Positions 12,921-22,714 of a stretch of 64,000 nt of DNA are shown piece after piece; position 1 is the stretch's first letter, and every line of letters begins with the position of its first letter. The notes under the pieces were generated by a model. The model did no database searches. It was not told the origin of the DNA and saw nothing but the letters and a program-made list of their open reading frames with translations. The stretch comes from a virus. The position numbers were made by a program, and so were the translations under genes. The stretch spans positions 1 through 64,000 of the IMG/VR virus record IMGVR_UViG_3300036857_000619; one strand, 5' to 3'.

Positions 12921-13748
12921 TTGCCTGCACGAGCCATCTGGAGCGGCGCTATCACGCTCAGCCTGCTGAGCATCCCCGTCAAGCTGTACGCGGCCACGGA
13001 AAGTAAGGACCTCGCCTTCAACACCCTGCACAGCCAGTGCAGCAGCCGCTTGAATCAGAAGCGCTGGTGCGCCACGTGCGACCGCGAGGTTCCCTCGGAG
13101 GAGACCGAGCGCGCCTACCAGTGGTCGAAGGGCGTCTACGTCCCGGTCAGCGACGACGACCTGGCCAGCGTGGCCGTCGAGTCGGCCCACACCATCGACC
13201 TCAAGCAGTTCGCCGGCGCCGAGGAGTTCGACCCGGTGTACTTCGAGAAGGCGTACTGGCTCGAGCCCGACAAGATCGGCGTGGGCCCCTACAACCTGCT
13301 CTACCGCGCCCTGCAGGAGCGCAACGTCTACGGCATTGGGACGGTGACCCTGCGCACCAAGGAGCGCCTGGTCGCGCTGCGTGCCGGCGGCGGGCCGCAG
13401 CCGGCGCTGATGCTCGACACCCTGTTCTACCCGGACGAGATCCGCGAGCGCGCCGCGCTCAGCATGCCCGCCGTCGACGCCCGCCAGCTCGAGGTCGCGC
13501 TGCAGCTGGTGGATGCCAAGACCGAGCCGTTCGTGCCGGCCGACAACGTCGACACCTACCGCGACGCGCTGCTAGCGCTCATCACTGCCAAGCAGAGCGG
13601 CCAGGCGATCGTCGCGCCCATCGCCACGGCCAAGCCCGAGGCTGGCATCCCGGACCTGATGTCCATGCTGCAAGCCGCCGTCGCCGACGCGCAGACCAAG
13701 GCGCGGCCGGACGCCATCCAGCCCAAGCGCAAGAAGGGAGCCGCTTAG
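12921..13748 (+). CDS. ku: Ku protein (prokaryotic NHEJ DNA-end-binding)
   Basis: 275 aa, TTG start 8 nt after CAAGGAG. Bacterial Ku core from the first residues: RAIWSGAITLSLLSIPVKLY, then ATESKDLAFNTLHSQC, WCATCDREVPSEE, GVYVPVSDDDL, VYFEKAYWLEPD and a YNLLYRAL block, matching the Ku70/80 beta-barrel family in order and length. The C-terminus has a basic tail (IQPKRKKGAA), as in many bacterial Ku proteins that contact DNA or LigD. Ku homodimers thread DNA ends and recruit ligase. An ATP-dependent ligase lies 2.6 kb downstream. Known phage Ku proteins (mycobacteriophages Omega and Corndog) help circularise genomes. Confidence 0.95.
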   Translation: MPARAIWSGAITLSLLSIPVKLYAATESKDLAFNTLHSQCSSRLNQKRWCATCDREVPSEETERAYQWSKGVYVPVSDDDLASVAVESAHTIDLKQFAGAEEFDPVYFEKAYWLEPDKIGVGPYNLLYRALQERNVYGIGTVTLRTKERLVALRAGGGPQPALMLDTLFYPDEIRERAALSMPAVDARQLEVALQLVDAKTEPFVPADNVDTYRDALLALITAKQSGQAIVAPIATAKPEAGIPDLMSMLQAAVADAQTKARPDAIQPKRKKGAA

Positions 13749-13753
13749 CCATC

Positions 13754-14353
13754 ATGCCCAACCATTGCGAATCCGACCTGATCGTCACCGGGCCTGCCGA
13801 GCAGATCGACGAGTTCCTGGCCAAGCACGTCGTCAAGGATGACGGGACCGTGCTCGACCTGAACACGATCCGCCCGTACCCGCAGGAGCTCGCGGAGCTC
13901 GACCGCGCCGAAAGAGAGTGGTCGAGCGGCTACGAGGCTGCCCGCGCCGCCGCGGGCGAGGGCGACAGCCCGCTGCCCAGGGAGCTGAGCATGGCCGTCT
14001 ACCAGGAGTACGTTCGCCAGCACGGCGAGCGCCCCAAGGACGGCTTCAACTCGGGCGGCTACGACTGGTGCGTCAAGAACTGGGGCACGAAGTGGGGCTG
14101 CTACCACCAGGGCTACACCGGCAAGCCGCCGCTCAGACGCACAAGCCGCGGGCGTGTCGAACTGCACTTCTCGACCGCCTGGGGGCCCTTTGATACGGGG
14201 CTGCTCGAGGAGGTCTCGACGAAGTTCCCCGCCCTCAAGTTCAAGATGGACTCGTACGAGCGCGGCATGGGCTTCCAGTGCCACGTCGTCGTCGAGGGCG
14301 GCGAGATCGCCGACGAAACGAGCGGCGACTACCACGGCTCTCGGGGAGGCTGA
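13754..14353 (+). CDS. Api92-like protein (ferredoxin-like, DUF1281-type)
   Basis: 199 aa. MPNHCESDLIVTGP at the N-terminus and GYDWCVKNWGTKWGCY in the middle are hallmark motifs of the Api92/DUF1281 family found in phages and plasmids. The C-terminal half (LHFSTAWGPFDTGLLEEVST) completes the ferredoxin-like fold. Biochemical role unknown. ATG 5 nt after the ku stop region, so probably co-transcribed with ku. Confidence 0.75.
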   Translation: MPNHCESDLIVTGPAEQIDEFLAKHVVKDDGTVLDLNTIRPYPQELAELDRAEREWSSGYEAARAAAGEGDSPLPRELSMAVYQEYVRQHGERPKDGFNSGGYDWCVKNWGTKWGCYHQGYTGKPPLRRTSRGRVELHFSTAWGPFDTGLLEEVSTKFPALKFKMDSYERGMGFQCHVVVEGGEIADETSGDYHGSRGG

Positions 14354-14358
14354 GCCCG

Positions 14359-14586
14359 GTGACGAGCCACTTCTCGCTTGGCAATTCTTCCCGAGGCCCG
14401 ATCGGCTTCTGCGCGCGCGTCGACGCGGGCAACAAGTCGGAGGCGGTCGAGAAGCTCAAGGAGTACATCGAGGACCTCAACCGCGAGGTCTCCGTCAGCA
14501 GCTACGACGACGACATCGAGTATTTCGAGGTCTATCTCAACCCGGACGTGATCAGCACGCGCCACATCGACGAGGTGGGCGGATGA
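14359..14586 (+). CDS. Small hypothetical protein
   Basis: 75 aa from GTG 14359 (GGGAGG 11 nt upstream). FCARVDAGNKSEAVEKLKEY and EDLNREVSVSSYDDDIEYFE suggest an alpha/beta fold. Stop overlaps the next ATG. Confidence 0.65.
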   Translation: MTSHFSLGNSSRGPIGFCARVDAGNKSEAVEKLKEYIEDLNREVSVSSYDDDIEYFEVYLNPDVISTRHIDEVGG

Positions 14587-14867
14587 GCGTCCAGCGCTGC
14601 GGCGCCACGGTCGACGTGCGCGACGGCCCGTACAGCGAACCGATCCCCTGGCAGCGGTGCGGCAAGCCCGTCGGCCACGAGGGCAGCTGCGATGTGGTGT
14701 TCACCGTCTACTACAGCGACGCTGACGGCAACGAAACCGACGTCGAGGATTTCCTCGCGCGCGACGAAGCTGAGCAGGCTGCCGAGTACCTGATGGGCAT
14801 TCGCGATGTCAGTCAGGTCCTGACGGGCTGCACATTCGAGGTTCGGGAGGCAACCGAAGAGTCATGA
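14583..14867 (+). CDS. Hypothetical protein
   Basis: 94 aa. RCGATVDVRDG, RCGKPVGHEGSCD carry Cys and His in the pattern seen in small phage zinc proteins; the second half is acidic. ATGA coupled to both neighbours. Confidence 0.65.
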   Translation: MSVQRCGATVDVRDGPYSEPIPWQRCGKPVGHEGSCDVVFTVYYSDADGNETDVEDFLARDEAEQAAEYLMGIRDVSQVLTGCTFEVREATEES

Positions 14868-15160
14868 CGCTCAAGAACCGTGAGGTCCAGATCACCATCC
14901 CGGATGACGCCTGGGAGCCGAACGACGGGTTAGCCGATCCACGCTCGCGGCTGCTGGCGACGATCAGCATCAACGACTGCCCGATGCACCTCGAGGCGTG
15001 GGAAGTCCGCGTCAACGAGGAGGGCATCCAGGAACCCACGGCGATCGAGGACGACGGCGACTTCTGGAATCTGTACGCGGCCGTGGGCGCCGACGGCCAC
15101 TTCCAGACCGTGGAGATCGGCGGGCGCGAGTACATCCTCGTGGCCAGCCCCTACTGCTGA
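14864..15160 (+). CDS. Hypothetical protein, acidic, beta-rich
   Basis: 98 aa. NREVQITIPDDAWEPNDG, LLATISINDCPMHLEAWEVR and FQTVEIGGREYILVASPY read as beta strands. No family recognised. Confidence 0.65.
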   Translation: MTLKNREVQITIPDDAWEPNDGLADPRSRLLATISINDCPMHLEAWEVRVNEEGIQEPTAIEDDGDFWNLYAAVGADGHFQTVEIGGREYILVASPYC

Positions 15161-15167
15161 GGAGAAC

Positions 15168-15470
15168 ATGCAGCAAATCACCACCACGACGGTCATCCGC
15201 CAGCTCGAACGCCCGCCGTGCCCAAAGTGCGGCGGCAGGCTCGACTTCACACGCCGCTACATCGGCACCGAATCGCGCGGCATCCAGGCGCTTGAGCGCC
15301 AGCTGCCGATCGCGACAGGCCCGGATGCGCGCGGTCCCGACACGTGGCGCCTCACCGTCGACGACGAGGTCGCCAGCGACGAGTACGACGAGATCCTCGA
15401 GGAGCGCGTGTTCTGCCTCGACGACGCCTGCGGCTTCGCCGTGAGCGGCGACCGACTGGAGGTCGAGTAG
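15168..15470 (+). CDS. Zinc-ribbon hypothetical protein
   Basis: 100 aa, GAGGAGA 5 nt upstream. PPCPKCGGRLDFTRRYIG and VFCLDDACGFAV: CxxC...CxxxxC ribbon wrapped around a variable insert. Typical phage accessory zinc protein. Confidence 0.7.
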   Translation: MQQITTTTVIRQLERPPCPKCGGRLDFTRRYIGTESRGIQALERQLPIATGPDARGPDTWRLTVDDEVASDEYDEILEERVFCLDDACGFAVSGDRLEVE

Positions 15471-16160
15471 TTGATCTACCTGTCCGGCGTGGTGCGCCCC
15501 GAGATCCTGGGCGCGCGCGCCGACCTGGGCGTCATGATGACGCCGCGGGCGGGCAACCGCCCCGACCTGAGCCGGACGTACTGGGCCCTGGACAACGGCC
15601 TGTACCACGACACCGACGAGCCCGAGCGGCAGTTCGACGACGACCGCTTCTTCCGCCTGCTGGATGCTACCGAGCGCTACAAGCCGACGTGCCTGTTCCT
15701 GGTCTGCCCGGACGTGCCCTACGAGGACGTGAACACCATCACGCTGTCGATGCTGTGGTGGCCGGCCCTGAGAAAGACGGGCTACCCGCTGGCGCTGGCC
15801 GCGCAGAACGGCATGGAGCGCTGGCGCATCCCCTGGGAGTGCTACGACTGGCTGTTCCTGGGTGGCACCGTCGACTGGAAGTTTTCTCCAGGCGCCGCCG
15901 GCATGGTCCGCCAGGCGAAGGCGCGCGGGCTGAGAGTACATCTCGGCAAGTGCAACTCGCTCAAACGGCTTGTTTGGGCGAAGGCGCTCGGCTGCGATAC
16001 CGCCGATGGCACCTACGTCGCGTTCCGTGCGCGCGGCGGCGGCAAGGGCCGCGGCGTGCGCGAGATCGCCGGCTGGCTCGATCAAATCAATGGGAGGCCA
16101 CCATCCCCACCAACTTCGAGGCTCGCGACGTTCTCGCCGCCGCCCGCCGTGGCGGCCTAG
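15471..16160 (+). CDS. TGT/DpdA-like TIM-barrel protein (candidate 7-deazaguanine transglycosylase)
   Basis: 229 aa, TTG start directly after the previous stop. Blocks in order: YWALDNGLYHDT, CLFLVCPDVPYEDVNT, YPLALAAQNGMERWRIPWEC, YDWLFLGGTVDWKFS, VHLGKCNSLKRLVWAKALGCD, ADGTYVAF. These recur in a phage/actinobacterial family that I associate with queuine tRNA-ribosyltransferase/DpdA-type proteins. In the known systems DpdA inserts a preQ0-derived base into DNA. No preQ0 synthesis gene is in the window, so the precursor would be host-derived or encoded elsewhere. The last 30 residues overlap the next gene and look unstructured. Family assignment is moderate. Confidence 0.5.
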   Translation: MIYLSGVVRPEILGARADLGVMMTPRAGNRPDLSRTYWALDNGLYHDTDEPERQFDDDRFFRLLDATERYKPTCLFLVCPDVPYEDVNTITLSMLWWPALRKTGYPLALAAQNGMERWRIPWECYDWLFLGGTVDWKFSPGAAGMVRQAKARGLRVHLGKCNSLKRLVWAKALGCDTADGTYVAFRARGGGKGRGVREIAGWLDQINGRPPSPPTSRLATFSPPPAVAA

Positions 16161-16291
16161 AGCGCGAAGTACACCGCACCGTGCCGATCGCCGAGCTCGC
16201 CACTCCCGATCCGAACGCCCTGGTCCAGCAGGTTCTGACTGTCTGGGCCCAGTGCCTGGAGCTGCTCCAGGCGCGCATGGAAGGAGCCTGA
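16103..16291 (+). CDS. Small protein with a probable ATC start
   Basis: 62 aa. The frame has convincing protein character (FEARDVLAAARRGGLEREVH, LATPDPNALVQQVLTVWAQC) but no ATG, GTG or TTG nearby. GGGAGG ends 5 nt before ATC 16103, at ideal spacing. Overlaps the end of the TGT-like gene by 58 nt. Alternatively it is a fusion partner reached by frameshift. Confidence 0.5.
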   Translation: MPTNFEARDVLAAARRGGLEREVHRTVPIAELATPDPNALVQQVLTVWAQCLELLQARMEGA

Positions 16292-16294
16292 GCT

Positions 16295-16372
16295 TTGACG
16301 CTGCTACTGCACGCGCTACACCCGCCGACGATCCCCGGTGTCCGTCCCCTGGAAGCGGAGTGGTCCACCTAG
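16295..16372 (+). CDS. Short upstream ORF in frame with the ligase
   Basis: 25 codons from TTG 16295, 8 nt after an ideal AAGGAG, ending at TAG 16370-16372 (MTLLLHALHPPTIPGVRPLE...). It is in the same frame as the ligase, whose GTG follows 10 nt later without an SD. Either a coupling uORF or an amber-interrupted N-terminus. Confidence 0.5.
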   Translation: MTLLLHALHPPTIPGVRPLEAEWST

Positions 16373-16381
16373 CCGGCTCCC

Positions 16382-17257
16382 GTGGAAGCCTTCGGTCTGT
16401 GCGCGCGCGCCGAGCGCCTGCCAGACCGACTGCAGGATTGGCTCATGGAGCCCAAGCTGGACGGCGTGCGCGTGCATGTCCGCGCCGGCGGTGGGCGCGT
16501 GGACGTCATGACGCGCCGCGGCCAGCGTTTCAACGGCCGCCTGCCGCGCATCGAGTCGCGGCTAGAGTCCCTCGAGCTCGTGCTCGACGGCGAGGTGGTG
16601 TGGTTCGACCGCTCGGGCCAGGTCGACTTTCACCACGGCTCGGGCCTGTTCCGCGCCGAGCCGACGCTCAGCCTGCGGCGGCAGCTGGCCGAGGGGCCGC
16701 TGGTGCTGATGGCCTGGGACATCCTGTCGTTGGCGGGCAATGACCTGCGCGGGCTGCCGATCGAGGAGCGCCGCGAGGTGGTAGCCAAGCTGGTCGAAAT
16801 CCTCGAGCTCGACGAGCTGCGGCTGGTCGACCAGGTGCCCGCCAGTCCCGAGGCCCAGGCGTACTTCGTGTCCGTCTACCACGAGGGCGTGGTGCTCAAA
16901 CGGCGAGGCAGTGCCTATCCCCGCGGCCGCGGCGGCAGCTGGCTGAAGCTCAAGGAGGTCTTCGACGAGGACGTGGTGATCATGGGCCTGGTCGAAGGCA
17001 AGAACTCGCTGACCGGCACCACCGGCGCGGTCGCCTTCGGCCAATACCGCGACGGGGTGTTGGTGCAGCGTGGCACCTGCAGCGGCATGGACGACCGGAC
17101 CCGTCATGACCTGTGGGCGAATTTTCCCGAGCGCTACGAGAGCCGCGTACTCGTGATTCGCCACATGGGACATGACGGAGCCGGCTTCCGTCACCCGCAA
17201 TGGCAGTATCTGCGCCCGCTGGATGACAAAGCCCCGGAGGAGTGCCTTTGGACGTAA
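16382..17257 (+). CDS. ATP-dependent DNA ligase
   Basis: 291 aa from GTG 16382. Nucleotidyltransferase motifs: I EPKLDGVRV (adenylated Lys25), LVLDGEVVWF (III), MAWDILSL (IIIa-like), YHEGVVLKRR (IV), SWLKLKEVF (V). An OB-like C-terminal part follows (DVVIMGLVEGKNSLTG, VAFGQYRDGVLVQRGTCSGM). It matches the compact ligase domain of LigD/T7-type enzymes and lacks polymerase and phosphoesterase domains. With Ku it forms an end-joining pair. There is no SD at the GTG; the SD lies before the in-frame uORF. The end overlaps the homing endonuclease by 10 nt. Confidence 0.92.
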   Translation: MEAFGLCARAERLPDRLQDWLMEPKLDGVRVHVRAGGGRVDVMTRRGQRFNGRLPRIESRLESLELVLDGEVVWFDRSGQVDFHHGSGLFRAEPTLSLRRQLAEGPLVLMAWDILSLAGNDLRGLPIEERREVVAKLVEILELDELRLVDQVPASPEAQAYFVSVYHEGVVLKRRGSAYPRGRGGSWLKLKEVFDEDVVIMGLVEGKNSLTGTTGAVAFGQYRDGVLVQRGTCSGMDDRTRHDLWANFPERYESRVLVIRHMGHDGAGFRHPQWQYLRPLDDKAPEECLWT

Positions 17258-17781
17258 CACCCGAGCAGATCGCCTGGGCGGCGGGTTTGTTTGAGGGTGA
17301 GGGCAGCATTTCGCTGGCTTACAAACTCAGCGGCCCGGCTCGCACGAGGCTCGGCTACGGCCGCATGGTGGTGGCCATGACCGATCGCGATGTTGTGGAA
17401 CGGTTTCACAAGGTCATGGGCTGTGGGACGGTCCGCACCGCAAAGCGCCCACCGCATAAGGACATCCATATCTGGAGCACCACAAGCCGCGCGTCGTTCG
17501 TGAAGGTCAGTGAGGCGCTCGGACCATGGCTTGGCGCGCGTCGCCGCGAGCGTCTCGAAGCAGTCATAGCCGCCTCGTCTCCAGTGCGCCGCCGCCCACC
17601 GAAGCGGCAGTTGTGCCGTCGCGGACACTGGCTGCACGGTGACAACGCAAAGCCCAATGGGCTCGCCGCGAACGGGCTGCCGAAGATCGCCTGCCGCAAA
17701 TGCATCAACGAAGCGCAGCGAGCGCGCTACGCGCGGAGAACGCGTGACGACAAGTCCGCCCTGGATTGCACCTGGAGCTAA
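17248..17781 (+). CDS. LAGLIDADG-type homing endonuclease with C-terminal zinc motif
   Basis: 177 aa, TTG 17248 chosen (GGAGGA 6 nt upstream; GTG 17242 is too close). IAWAAGLFEGEGSISL near residues 8-23 is the LAGLIDADG signature helix with its acidic catalytic region. One motif only, so it would act as a homodimer. The C-terminus CRRGHWLHGD...KIACRKCINEAQRAR is a CxxGH...CxxC module found in phage HNH/homing proteins. It lies directly behind the ligase gene as a free-standing mobile gene. Confidence 0.8.
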   Translation: MDVTPEQIAWAAGLFEGEGSISLAYKLSGPARTRLGYGRMVVAMTDRDVVERFHKVMGCGTVRTAKRPPHKDIHIWSTTSRASFVKVSEALGPWLGARRRERLEAVIAASSPVRRRPPKRQLCRRGHWLHGDNAKPNGLAANGLPKIACRKCINEAQRARYARRTRDDKSALDCTWS

Positions 17782-20791: not shown

Positions 20792-22714
20792 TTGACCCTG
20801 TCCCCCACCGCACCCTCCACCGAGCTCGTGGACAACGCCACCGAGGCTCGTCGCAACCCGGACTGGTACGCCAAGCTGGCGGCGGACCTGACGGCCAACG
20901 TCGCCACGACCTTCATCGTCCACGGCGCGGGCGTACACGACTACCAGTCGGGCACCGACCTGCTGCCCGACTACCTGTCGGACAAGCTGGAGCGCTTCTT
21001 CGAGACCGTGGTGCGCTTCAACGTGGGCAGCCTGGACGCCGAGCCGCTGGCGTTCTCGGGCGCCAACGCGCGCGACGCCAGGGGCAACAAGCCCGATCCC
21101 AACAAGCCCGATCCGCGCGAGCGCTTCGAGATCGTGACCGGCCTGCGCATGCCGCAGGGCGCGGGCGCCGCGCAGCCGGGCGTGCCCGATCCGTTCCAGG
21201 CGCTGCGCCAGAACCAGCCCGCCGGCGCGGCTGGCCCGCCCATGGCGCGGCCGCTGCCGACCAGCAACACCGATCTGGTGCGCCTGCTGATGCGCTTCCT
21301 GCGGGCGAGCGGGCGCATGCAAGCCGCCGTCATCATCGAGCGGGCCGACCTGCTGGTGCCGCCCGCTGACCTGGGCACGCTGCCGGACGGCCGCGCGGCG
21401 GTGCTCGGCATGATCGGCAACGCGGGCACCGACACGGTGCTCATCGACAAGGGCAATCCGCTGATCCTGCTGGCGCCCACGATCGAGAGCATCCACCAGG
21501 ACCTGCCGTCGGCCAAGACGGGCATCCAGTCGATCGAGGTCACGCTGCCCGATCAGACCGAGCGGCTGGCGTTCGCGCAGCTGGTCGAGCAGTCCAAGGG
21601 CAAGGGCTCGGTGCGCATGGAGGTCAGCGTCAAGGAGATCGCCAATCTCACGGCTGGCCTGTATCGCCGACACATCCTGGACATCTGGCTGCGCGGCGAG
21701 CAGGTGGGCGCCATCACCAAGCCGCTGGTCATCGCCCGCAAGAACGAGATCATGCGCGGCGAGTACGCCGAGGTGCTGGAGACGATGGAGCCGCGCTTCT
21801 CGTTCGACGACATTGGCGGCAACGTCGCCCTCAAGGAGTACCTACTCGAGTACGTCGTGCAGCGCATGAAGACGGGCAAGGTGAAGCGGCTTAGCAAGGG
21901 CATCGTGTTCACCGGTCCGTCGGGCACGGGCAAGTCGCTGTTCGCCGAGGCGCTGGCGATGGAGTTGCAGATCAACGTCGTGCTGCTGCGCCCGGAGAAG
22001 ATCAAGGGCTCGCTCTACGGCCAGTCGGAGCAGAATCTTGCCCGCGCGCTGGCGGGTATCCGGGCGAACTCGCCGTGCGTCGTGTTCATCGACGAGATCG
22101 ACCAGCGCTTCAGGCGCGGCGGCGGCGGGGCTGGCGGCGCTGCGGACGCGGCCGAGAACAACATCTTCGGCCGCATGCTGGAGGAGGTCGGTGATCCTGG
22201 CTCGCGCGGCCAGATCATGTGGATCGGCGCGACCAACCGTCCCGACACCTGCGACGCGGCGCTGTTCCGGCCTGGCCGCTTCGACGACAAGCTGCCGGTG
22301 TTGCCGCCGCCCGCCGCCGAGCGCGAGGGCATCTTCCGCACGCTGGTGGCGCGGCACGCCGACGGGCCGCTGCCGGCCCTCGACGGCGCGGACTGGAAGA
22401 CGATCGTCAACACGAGCGACGGCTGGACGGGCGCCGAGATCGAGCAAGCGGTCATCACCGCGTACGACCTGAACGAGCTGCGCAACGTGGCCATGCCGGC
22501 CGCGCTGCTGCAGGCGACCGAAGAGCTGATCCCGTCGACGCGGGACATCAAGCTGCACACCGACCTGGCGATCGCGGCGTGCAACCGTCGCGAGCTGATG
22601 CCAGTGGAGTACCGCGAGCGAGCCAGAGACGAGGAAGCCCTGGCCAAGAGCGCCGAGGAGGTCGACCGCCGGAGCGGCGGGCTGCGCGCTCGCCGCGATC
22701 GCGAGATCGACTAA
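20792..22714 (+). CDS. AAA+ ATPase with degenerate first domain (Ycf46-like)
   Basis: 640 aa, TTG after AAGGAG. Residues 1-330: a degenerate AAA-like half (FIVHGAGVHDY, VVRFNVGSLDAEPL, AAVIIERADLLVPP) lacking a P-loop. Residues 335-560: an active AAA+ domain with GPSGTGKS (375-382), Walker B VVFIDEID (about 430-437), sensor WIGATNRPDTCDAALFRPGR with arginine fingers, and a lid. The two-half design and inactive first half match Ycf46-type ATPases. Probably a hexameric remodelling machine acting with the two small upstream proteins. Ends DREID; the next gene ends with the same five residues. Confidence 0.85.
   Translation: MTLSPTAPSTELVDNATEARRNPDWYAKLAADLTANVATTFIVHGAGVHDYQSGTDLLPDYLSDKLERFFETVVRFNVGSLDAEPLAFSGANARDARGNKPDPNKPDPRERFEIVTGLRMPQGAGAAQPGVPDPFQALRQNQPAGAAGPPMARPLPTSNTDLVRLLMRFLRASGRMQAAVIIERADLLVPPADLGTLPDGRAAVLGMIGNAGTDTVLIDKGNPLILLAPTIESIHQDLPSAKTGIQSIEVTLPDQTERLAFAQLVEQSKGKGSVRMEVSVKEIANLTAGLYRRHILDIWLRGEQVGAITKPLVIARKNEIMRGEYAEVLETMEPRFSFDDIGGNVALKEYLLEYVVQRMKTGKVKRLSKGIVFTGPSGTGKSLFAEALAMELQINVVLLRPEKIKGSLYGQSEQNLARALAGIRANSPCVVFIDEIDQRFRRGGGGAGGAADAAENNIFGRMLEEVGDPGSRGQIMWIGATNRPDTCDAALFRPGRFDDKLPVLPPPAAEREGIFRTLVARHADGPLPALDGADWKTIVNTSDGWTGAEIEQAVITAYDLNELRNVAMPAALLQATEELIPSTRDIKLHTDLAIAACNRRELMPVEYRERARDEEALAKSAEEVDRRSGGLRARRDREID

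Follow-up and report, generated by a model that had tools for sequence, protein, structure and literature searches.

Ku and a minimal ATP-dependent DNA ligase encoded close together in a tailed phage: a candidate two-protein end-joining module with counterparts in other mobile genomes

The first 64 kb of the virus record IMGVR_UViG_3300036857_000619 (124,823 bp in full; here G000), which we call the window, carry a gene for a bacterial-type Ku protein and, on the same strand, a gene for a compact ATP-dependent DNA ligase. Both genes are complete and closely linked in one direction, the genome encodes neither the polymerase and phosphoesterase parts of LigD nor a DNA polymerase of family A, B or C, and the couple recurs in other mobile genomes. 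We consider it somewhat probable that the two proteins make up a polymerase-free end-joining module of the phage, although their cooperation, its substrate and its timing are things we infer. Judging from the sequences, the LigD of the host is probably not needed by some phages for rejoining the ends of their DNA.

Ku is encoded at positions 12921-13748 (+ strand) as a protein of 275 aa, with a TTG start and the motif AAGGAG 7 nt upstream. It scores 245 bits against the NCBIfam model TIGR02772, well above the curated threshold for bacterial Ku (150), and 150 bits against Pfam PF02735 (cut-off 25); it is assigned to PHROG 4873, "Ku-like DNA end binding", and matches Ku in the PDB with an E-value of 9e-45. 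Alignment with 13 other Ku proteins shows a core followed by a minimal C-terminal segment that is conserved (PDLMSMLQAAV), and then a tail that is short and basic (KRKKG). The ligase gene (16382-17257, + strand) starts with GTG and encodes 291 aa, which score 82 bits against PF01068 (cut-off 26) and fall in PHROG 114, ATP-dependent DNA ligase. Motif I (KLDGVR, with the invariant lysine at K25) is accompanied by motifs III (MAWDI), IV (EGVVLK) and V (WLKLK) and by a motif-VI-like RHP region, and the AlphaFold2 model, with a mean predicted local distance difference test (pLDDT) of 87.8, has a complete nucleotidyltransferase plus oligonucleotide-binding (OB) fold. Family scores of this size, for Ku and ligase alike, are too large for chance. 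A first interpretation of the window, made from its letters alone (the sequence-only reading), had proposed a co-directional cluster of Ku and a compact ligase with motifs I and III-V; both open reading frames (ORFs) were recovered where it had placed them, Ku cleared the curated bacterial cut-off and every motif was found, the VI-like region being an addition.

Among 13 NCBIfam ligase models, TIGR02779, the ligase domain of LigD and non-homologous end joining (NHEJ), ranks first for the phage protein with 132 bits, and the best non-LigD models reach about 84 bits. The protein lies under the cut-offs of LigC (NF006078/PRK08224; 77 bits versus 296) and of the LigE-like model (NF006592/PRK09125; 46 bits versus 200), the latter despite a good fold match. 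We rejected the model ranking as a ground for LigD membership, because ligases of Ku-less phages (Alicyclobacillus phage, L006) likewise rank TIGR02779 first. The nearest bacterial sequences retrieved by a pattern-limited search are actinobacterial, with 36% identity. In a tree of 32 ligases, marked by long branches, the protein stands outside the LigD-LIG clade; the approximately unbiased (AU) test rejects a placement neither on the LigD side (p = 0.14) nor on the LigB side (0.26) or the T4/T7 side (0.47), the grouping with the replicative phage ligases of T4/T7 type being weak. Foldseek matched the structure model to LigD LIG, LigE, archaeal and human ligases, in superpositions that depend on domain orientation, and the fold is that of a minimal nucleotidyltransferase plus OB ligase. 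The protein is accordingly filed as a minimal ATP ligase and not as LigD. The sequence-only reading had named, as what would count against it, a ligase from a nick-sealing replication family never tied to Ku. No such assignment resulted: the NHEJ ligase domain is the best-scoring model, the searches brought up no DNA polymerase of the phage, and in other phages the ligase adjoins Ku; secure membership of LigD did not result either.

The strongest rival explanation takes the ligase for an ordinary nick-sealer of phage replication or excision repair, unrelated to Ku, and their nearness for a clustering of early DNA-metabolism genes. Many Ku-less phages have minimal ATP ligases, the tree permits the T4/T7-like placement, and of the bacterial ligases it is LigE, a minimal one without ties to Ku, that gives the best full-length Foldseek superposition; moreover, mycobacterial LigC-type ligases work in base excision repair (PMC5663958). 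The gene content of the phage fits this explanation less well. We searched the whole of G000, and not the ligase alone, for the polymerase and phosphoesterase domains that the sequence-only reading had found lacking, and the genome indeed encodes no Prim-Pol domain (PF21686), fused or separate, and no phosphoesterase domain (PF13298). The phosphoesterase domain is also missing from some true LigD proteins, such as that of B. subtilis. Both domains, as well as DNA polymerases of families A, B and C, are absent from all four genomes that carry Ku and ligase together, no replicative helicase or primase stands among the matches listed for 49 G000 proteins (25 of 26 Pfam families), and the genes directly flanking the pair are not recognisable as replication genes. 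Adjacency to Ku, in addition, repeats in other genomes, at about 330 bp in two of them. Both this recurrence and the missing phage DNA polymerases weaken the case for an independent nick-sealer, which seems to us rather unlikely.

The recurrence of the pair was assessed from both genes. Two alignment-based Ku scans of IMG/VR gave 25 and 40 loci in overlapping sets, which makes Ku rare in viral contigs (at least 40 loci from 2.9 million contigs). When the whole records of these loci were searched with PF01068, a ligase was found in G019, G024 and G025 only; a stand-alone ATP ligase was absent from all the other Ku-bearing records tested, about 35 in number and including Omega-type mycobacteriophages. 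A ligase-first scan, with the ligases of the window and of G019 as queries, returned three viral loci, namely G019 itself, G041, in which Ku adjoins the ligase, and G042, which has no Ku; of the two records that were not already queries, one thus had a neighbouring Ku, rare as Ku is among viral contigs. Ku and ligase occupy 86051-86902 and 89840-90964 in G019, lie 330 bp apart in G024/G025 and 332 bp apart in G041, so that a Ku and an ATP ligase encoded nearby on one strand, the arrangement of a two-component NHEJ system, are found in G000, G019, G024/G025 and G041, with a spacing of 0.33-2.9 kb in the other three lineages. Under random gene order, same-strand closeness to Ku as tight as this would occur with a frequency of 0.115 in G019, 0.014 in G024 and 0.007 in G041, values that are optimistic for the pairing, given the functional clustering of phage genes and the fact that the ligase was what led to G041.

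By their terminase and portal matches, G019 and G041 are phages. G024 is an 85 kb circular element with a 127-bp terminal repeat, classed as viral by IMG/VR; no terminase, portal or capsid gene was recognised among its proteins tested, which leaves a choice between phage and plasmid-like element. Its ligase (L040:11216-12118, the same in L041) seems internally rearranged within a single open frame, its LYSKNGHDITGRFPEL lying between motifs III and IV instead of in the usual place right after motif I. Whichever two of G000, G019 and G024 are compared, they have hardly anything in common apart from Ku, the ligase and a handful of genes that are small or accessory. The search for co-occurrence in related phages proposed by the sequence-only reading thus brought out the pair, with its genes close together, in two more lineages of phages and in an element that is putatively viral.

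Monophyly is weakly rejected for the four ligases (AU p = 0.028) and likewise for the four Ku proteins (p = 0.041), these values being uncorrected for the several tests and affected by long branches. The ligase tree puts G024 and G041 on the LigD side and gives no placement for G000 or G019. Because common origin is weakly rejected for either protein, the two genes have probably been brought together more than once rather than inherited as one cassette, a suggestion and nothing firmer. The wider proposition, that unrelated phages have independently paired Ku with differing small ATP ligases, not just those of LigD type, and so circularise or mend their genomes without host LigD, is one that we put forward as tentative, and it may well prove wrong.

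Most phage Ku genes come without a ligase. The IMG/VR contigs L019-L027 and L055-L065, among others, carry Ku without any ATP ligase and are mostly of high G+C content; several have terminase- and portal-like genes, and most group in a single Ku clade of good support. The annotated records of phages with a similar Ku are all from Mycobacterium phages, except for one probable bacterial scaffold: MT838252 (MT838252.1, L009), labelled "Bacteriophage sp.", was rejected as a Ku phage because its Fpg-like and Clp-like genes give it a bacterial look. Phage Ku is far wider than the recorded mycobacteriophages. The number of Ku phages without ligase shows that Ku is evidently useful alone, and lends some colour to the idea that it mainly shields phage ends from host nucleases in the manner of Gam, joining being left to host LigD and the phage ligase being incidental. 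LigD is frequent in actinobacterial hosts, and the conserved C-terminal segment of Ku is kept in G000 as in the ligase-less phages; Mu Gam, which is homologous to Ku, binds phage ends and protects them (PMC1378119). Such a shield would, however, leave the ligase beside Ku in unrelated phages unexplained, and we think it improbable.

G000 is a tailed phage, with a recognised terminase large subunit and portal. The end of the record repeats its start exactly over 127 bp, which indicates a circularly complete assembly, whatever the termini of the packaged DNA may be. The terminase large-subunit gene is apparently split by an intein-like insertion (98402-100867), as it is in G041 (76121-78988); the basis is a match to a hint-domain protein, together with split terminase matches. 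The Pfam scan of G000 proteins also recognised a tyrosine integrase, a Gp3-like recombination directionality factor, RuvB and a transglycosylase domain of the resuscitation-factor type. As an integrase and an excision factor are encoded, the phage is apparently temperate, and the type of transglycosylase together with the high G+C content (mostly 64-73%) suggests an actinobacterial host.

Both genes of the pair lie within a single tightly packed run on the + strand and have strong coding scores. The gap between them, 2.6 kb, holds six clear genes of the same strand, several of which abut or overlap by a few bases, and the 221-bp stretch ahead of the ligase contains only a tiny ORF. A promoter and terminator scan across the cluster, which is weak for high-G+C hosts, gave signals no higher than the shuffled-sequence background. 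Lysogeny being plausible for this phage, the pair might serve the lysogen or transferred DNA, either as cargo that helps the host survive double-strand breaks by repair or in illegitimate gene acquisition by the phage; phages that have recently transferred genes show an over-representation of Ku carriers (PMC8136500). Yet both genes stand within a dense run of small phage genes and not in an isolated cargo operon, and of the explanations considered here we give this one very little credence.

If Ku and the ligase do act together in end joining, the minimal ATP ligase of the phage would seal abutting 5'-phosphate and 3'-hydroxyl ends. Because it has no polymerase or phosphoesterase part, the module would join compatible ends only, either blunt or cohesive ones left by the phage terminase. 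Its likeliest task would be to circularise the phage genome soon after entry and before integration, a step that G000 would need in order to integrate, as it encodes an integrase and a recombination directionality factor; a second task would be to re-seal breaks in phage DNA. Ku has been proposed to circularise the genomes of Omega and Corndog (PMC3706429, PMC4351075). In B. subtilis, the isolated ligase domain of LigD seals compatible ends together with Ku, and the Ku core and, by modelling, its minimal C-terminal helix touch the ligase domain (PMC13201618). The Ku of M. tuberculosis also binds the isolated ligase domain (PMC9638933).

Several observations weigh against an end-joining pair. 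The isolated ligase domain of M. tuberculosis joins double-strand ends weakly, and the main contact of Ku is there with the polymerase domain (PMC9638933); by analogy, a ligase without a polymerase domain may not be recruited by Ku. The phage ligase stays far under the curated TIGR02779 cut-off of 227.75, and the tree leaves it without a firm place in the LigD family. Furthermore, most Ku phages have no ligase, several phages with a LigD-type ligase have no Ku, and in G000 itself the two genes are separated by several others.

Taken singly, Ku and ATP ligases are already known from phages, as are Ku-ligase operons from bacteria. Omega (cluster J) and Corndog (cluster O) resemble G000 in having a bacterial-type Ku for which genome circularisation by end joining has been proposed (PMC3706429, PMC4351075). 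Their pattern, a phage Ku without a phage ligase, is not that of G000. A search of two Omegavirus genomes and of the IMG/VR records of Omega type, each over its full length, gave no PF01068 ligase, in keeping with what the sequence-only reading had said of these phages, for which use of host LigD has been proposed, whereas G000 brings its own ligase; Corndog itself was outside the genomes searched. The Omega-type Ku, moreover, has an Lsr2-like tail (PMC3706429), unlike the short basic one of G000. Like G000, the bacterial Ku and LigD system has its genes for Ku and an ATP ligase near each other on the same strand, and the LIG domain of LigD is the nearest model of the G000 ligase; the two differ in that G000 has no polymerase or phosphoesterase domain genome-wide and a ligase under the LigD-LIG cut-off. 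Bacterial clusters with a stand-alone LIG, such as L096 (LIG, a PE-like gene and a separate Ku), also have a separate ligase near Ku, but L096 is cellular and its ligase passes TIGR02779. Among phages, stand-alone ATP ligases of LigD-LIG type are found in the Rhizobium/Sinorhizobium phages PPF1, X66 and N1_10; in contrast to G000, those of PPF1 and X66 pass the TIGR02779 cut-off, and Ku is missing from all three phages. In PPF1 (L012:2845-3891), a full LigD-type ligase domain lies beside the attP site, and the ligases of RHph_X66 and N1_10 are similar to it. Mu Gam is likewise a phage Ku homologue that promotes end joining, as cited in PMC8136500, but it uses the ligase of E. coli and belongs to a separate Ku family. 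Our literature search, confined for the most part to open-access papers, turned up no account of Ku and a DNA ligase as a pair that recurs in phages.

The genes between Ku and the ligase begin with one for an Api92-like protein (DUF1281_C; 13754-14353, + strand; PF18406, E-value 1.5e-4), whose homologue in G019 (89258-89758, or L035:13208-13708; BLASTP E-value 5e-6) stands just ahead of the ligase. An Api92-like gene is thus found inside the Ku-ligase interval of both phages, beside Ku in G000 and beside the ligase in G019. Four small genes of unknown function follow on the + strand (14359-14586, 14583-14867, 14864-15160 and 15168-15470), abutting or overlapping by their gene calls. The last gene of the interval (15471-16160, + strand) encodes a conserved phage protein of 229 aa with no assigned function (PHROG 15826, E-value 1e-47) and with no Pfam or PDB sequence match; a TGT/DpdA-like fold was a guess without support, the single-sequence structure model being uninformative (pLDDT 39). 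A defence system was rejected for the interval genes, as a PADLOC search of them gave no match. Downstream, a homing-endonuclease-like gene (17242-17781, + strand; PHROG 5046, HNH endonuclease, E-value 3e-18, and a weak LAGLIDADG match) overlaps the 3' end of the ligase by 16 bp and is probably a neighbour rather than a component of the system. Further along, an AAA ATPase of 640 aa (20792-22714) matches the PADLOC IetA models with an E-value of 1e-19 over the ATPase core only, probably a generic AAA likeness.

Phage Ku has been known almost solely from mycobacteriophages and has so far been understood as dependent on host LigD. If the reading of Ku and ligase as an end-joining module is true, a phage with both proteins would not be restricted to hosts that carry NHEJ, and the module would be the smallest natural end-joining machine, made of two proteins without end processing. 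A comparison of independently paired Ku-ligase couples would reveal which contacts Ku must make to activate a ligase domain that stands alone, a matter in which the system of M. tuberculosis departs from that of B. subtilis.

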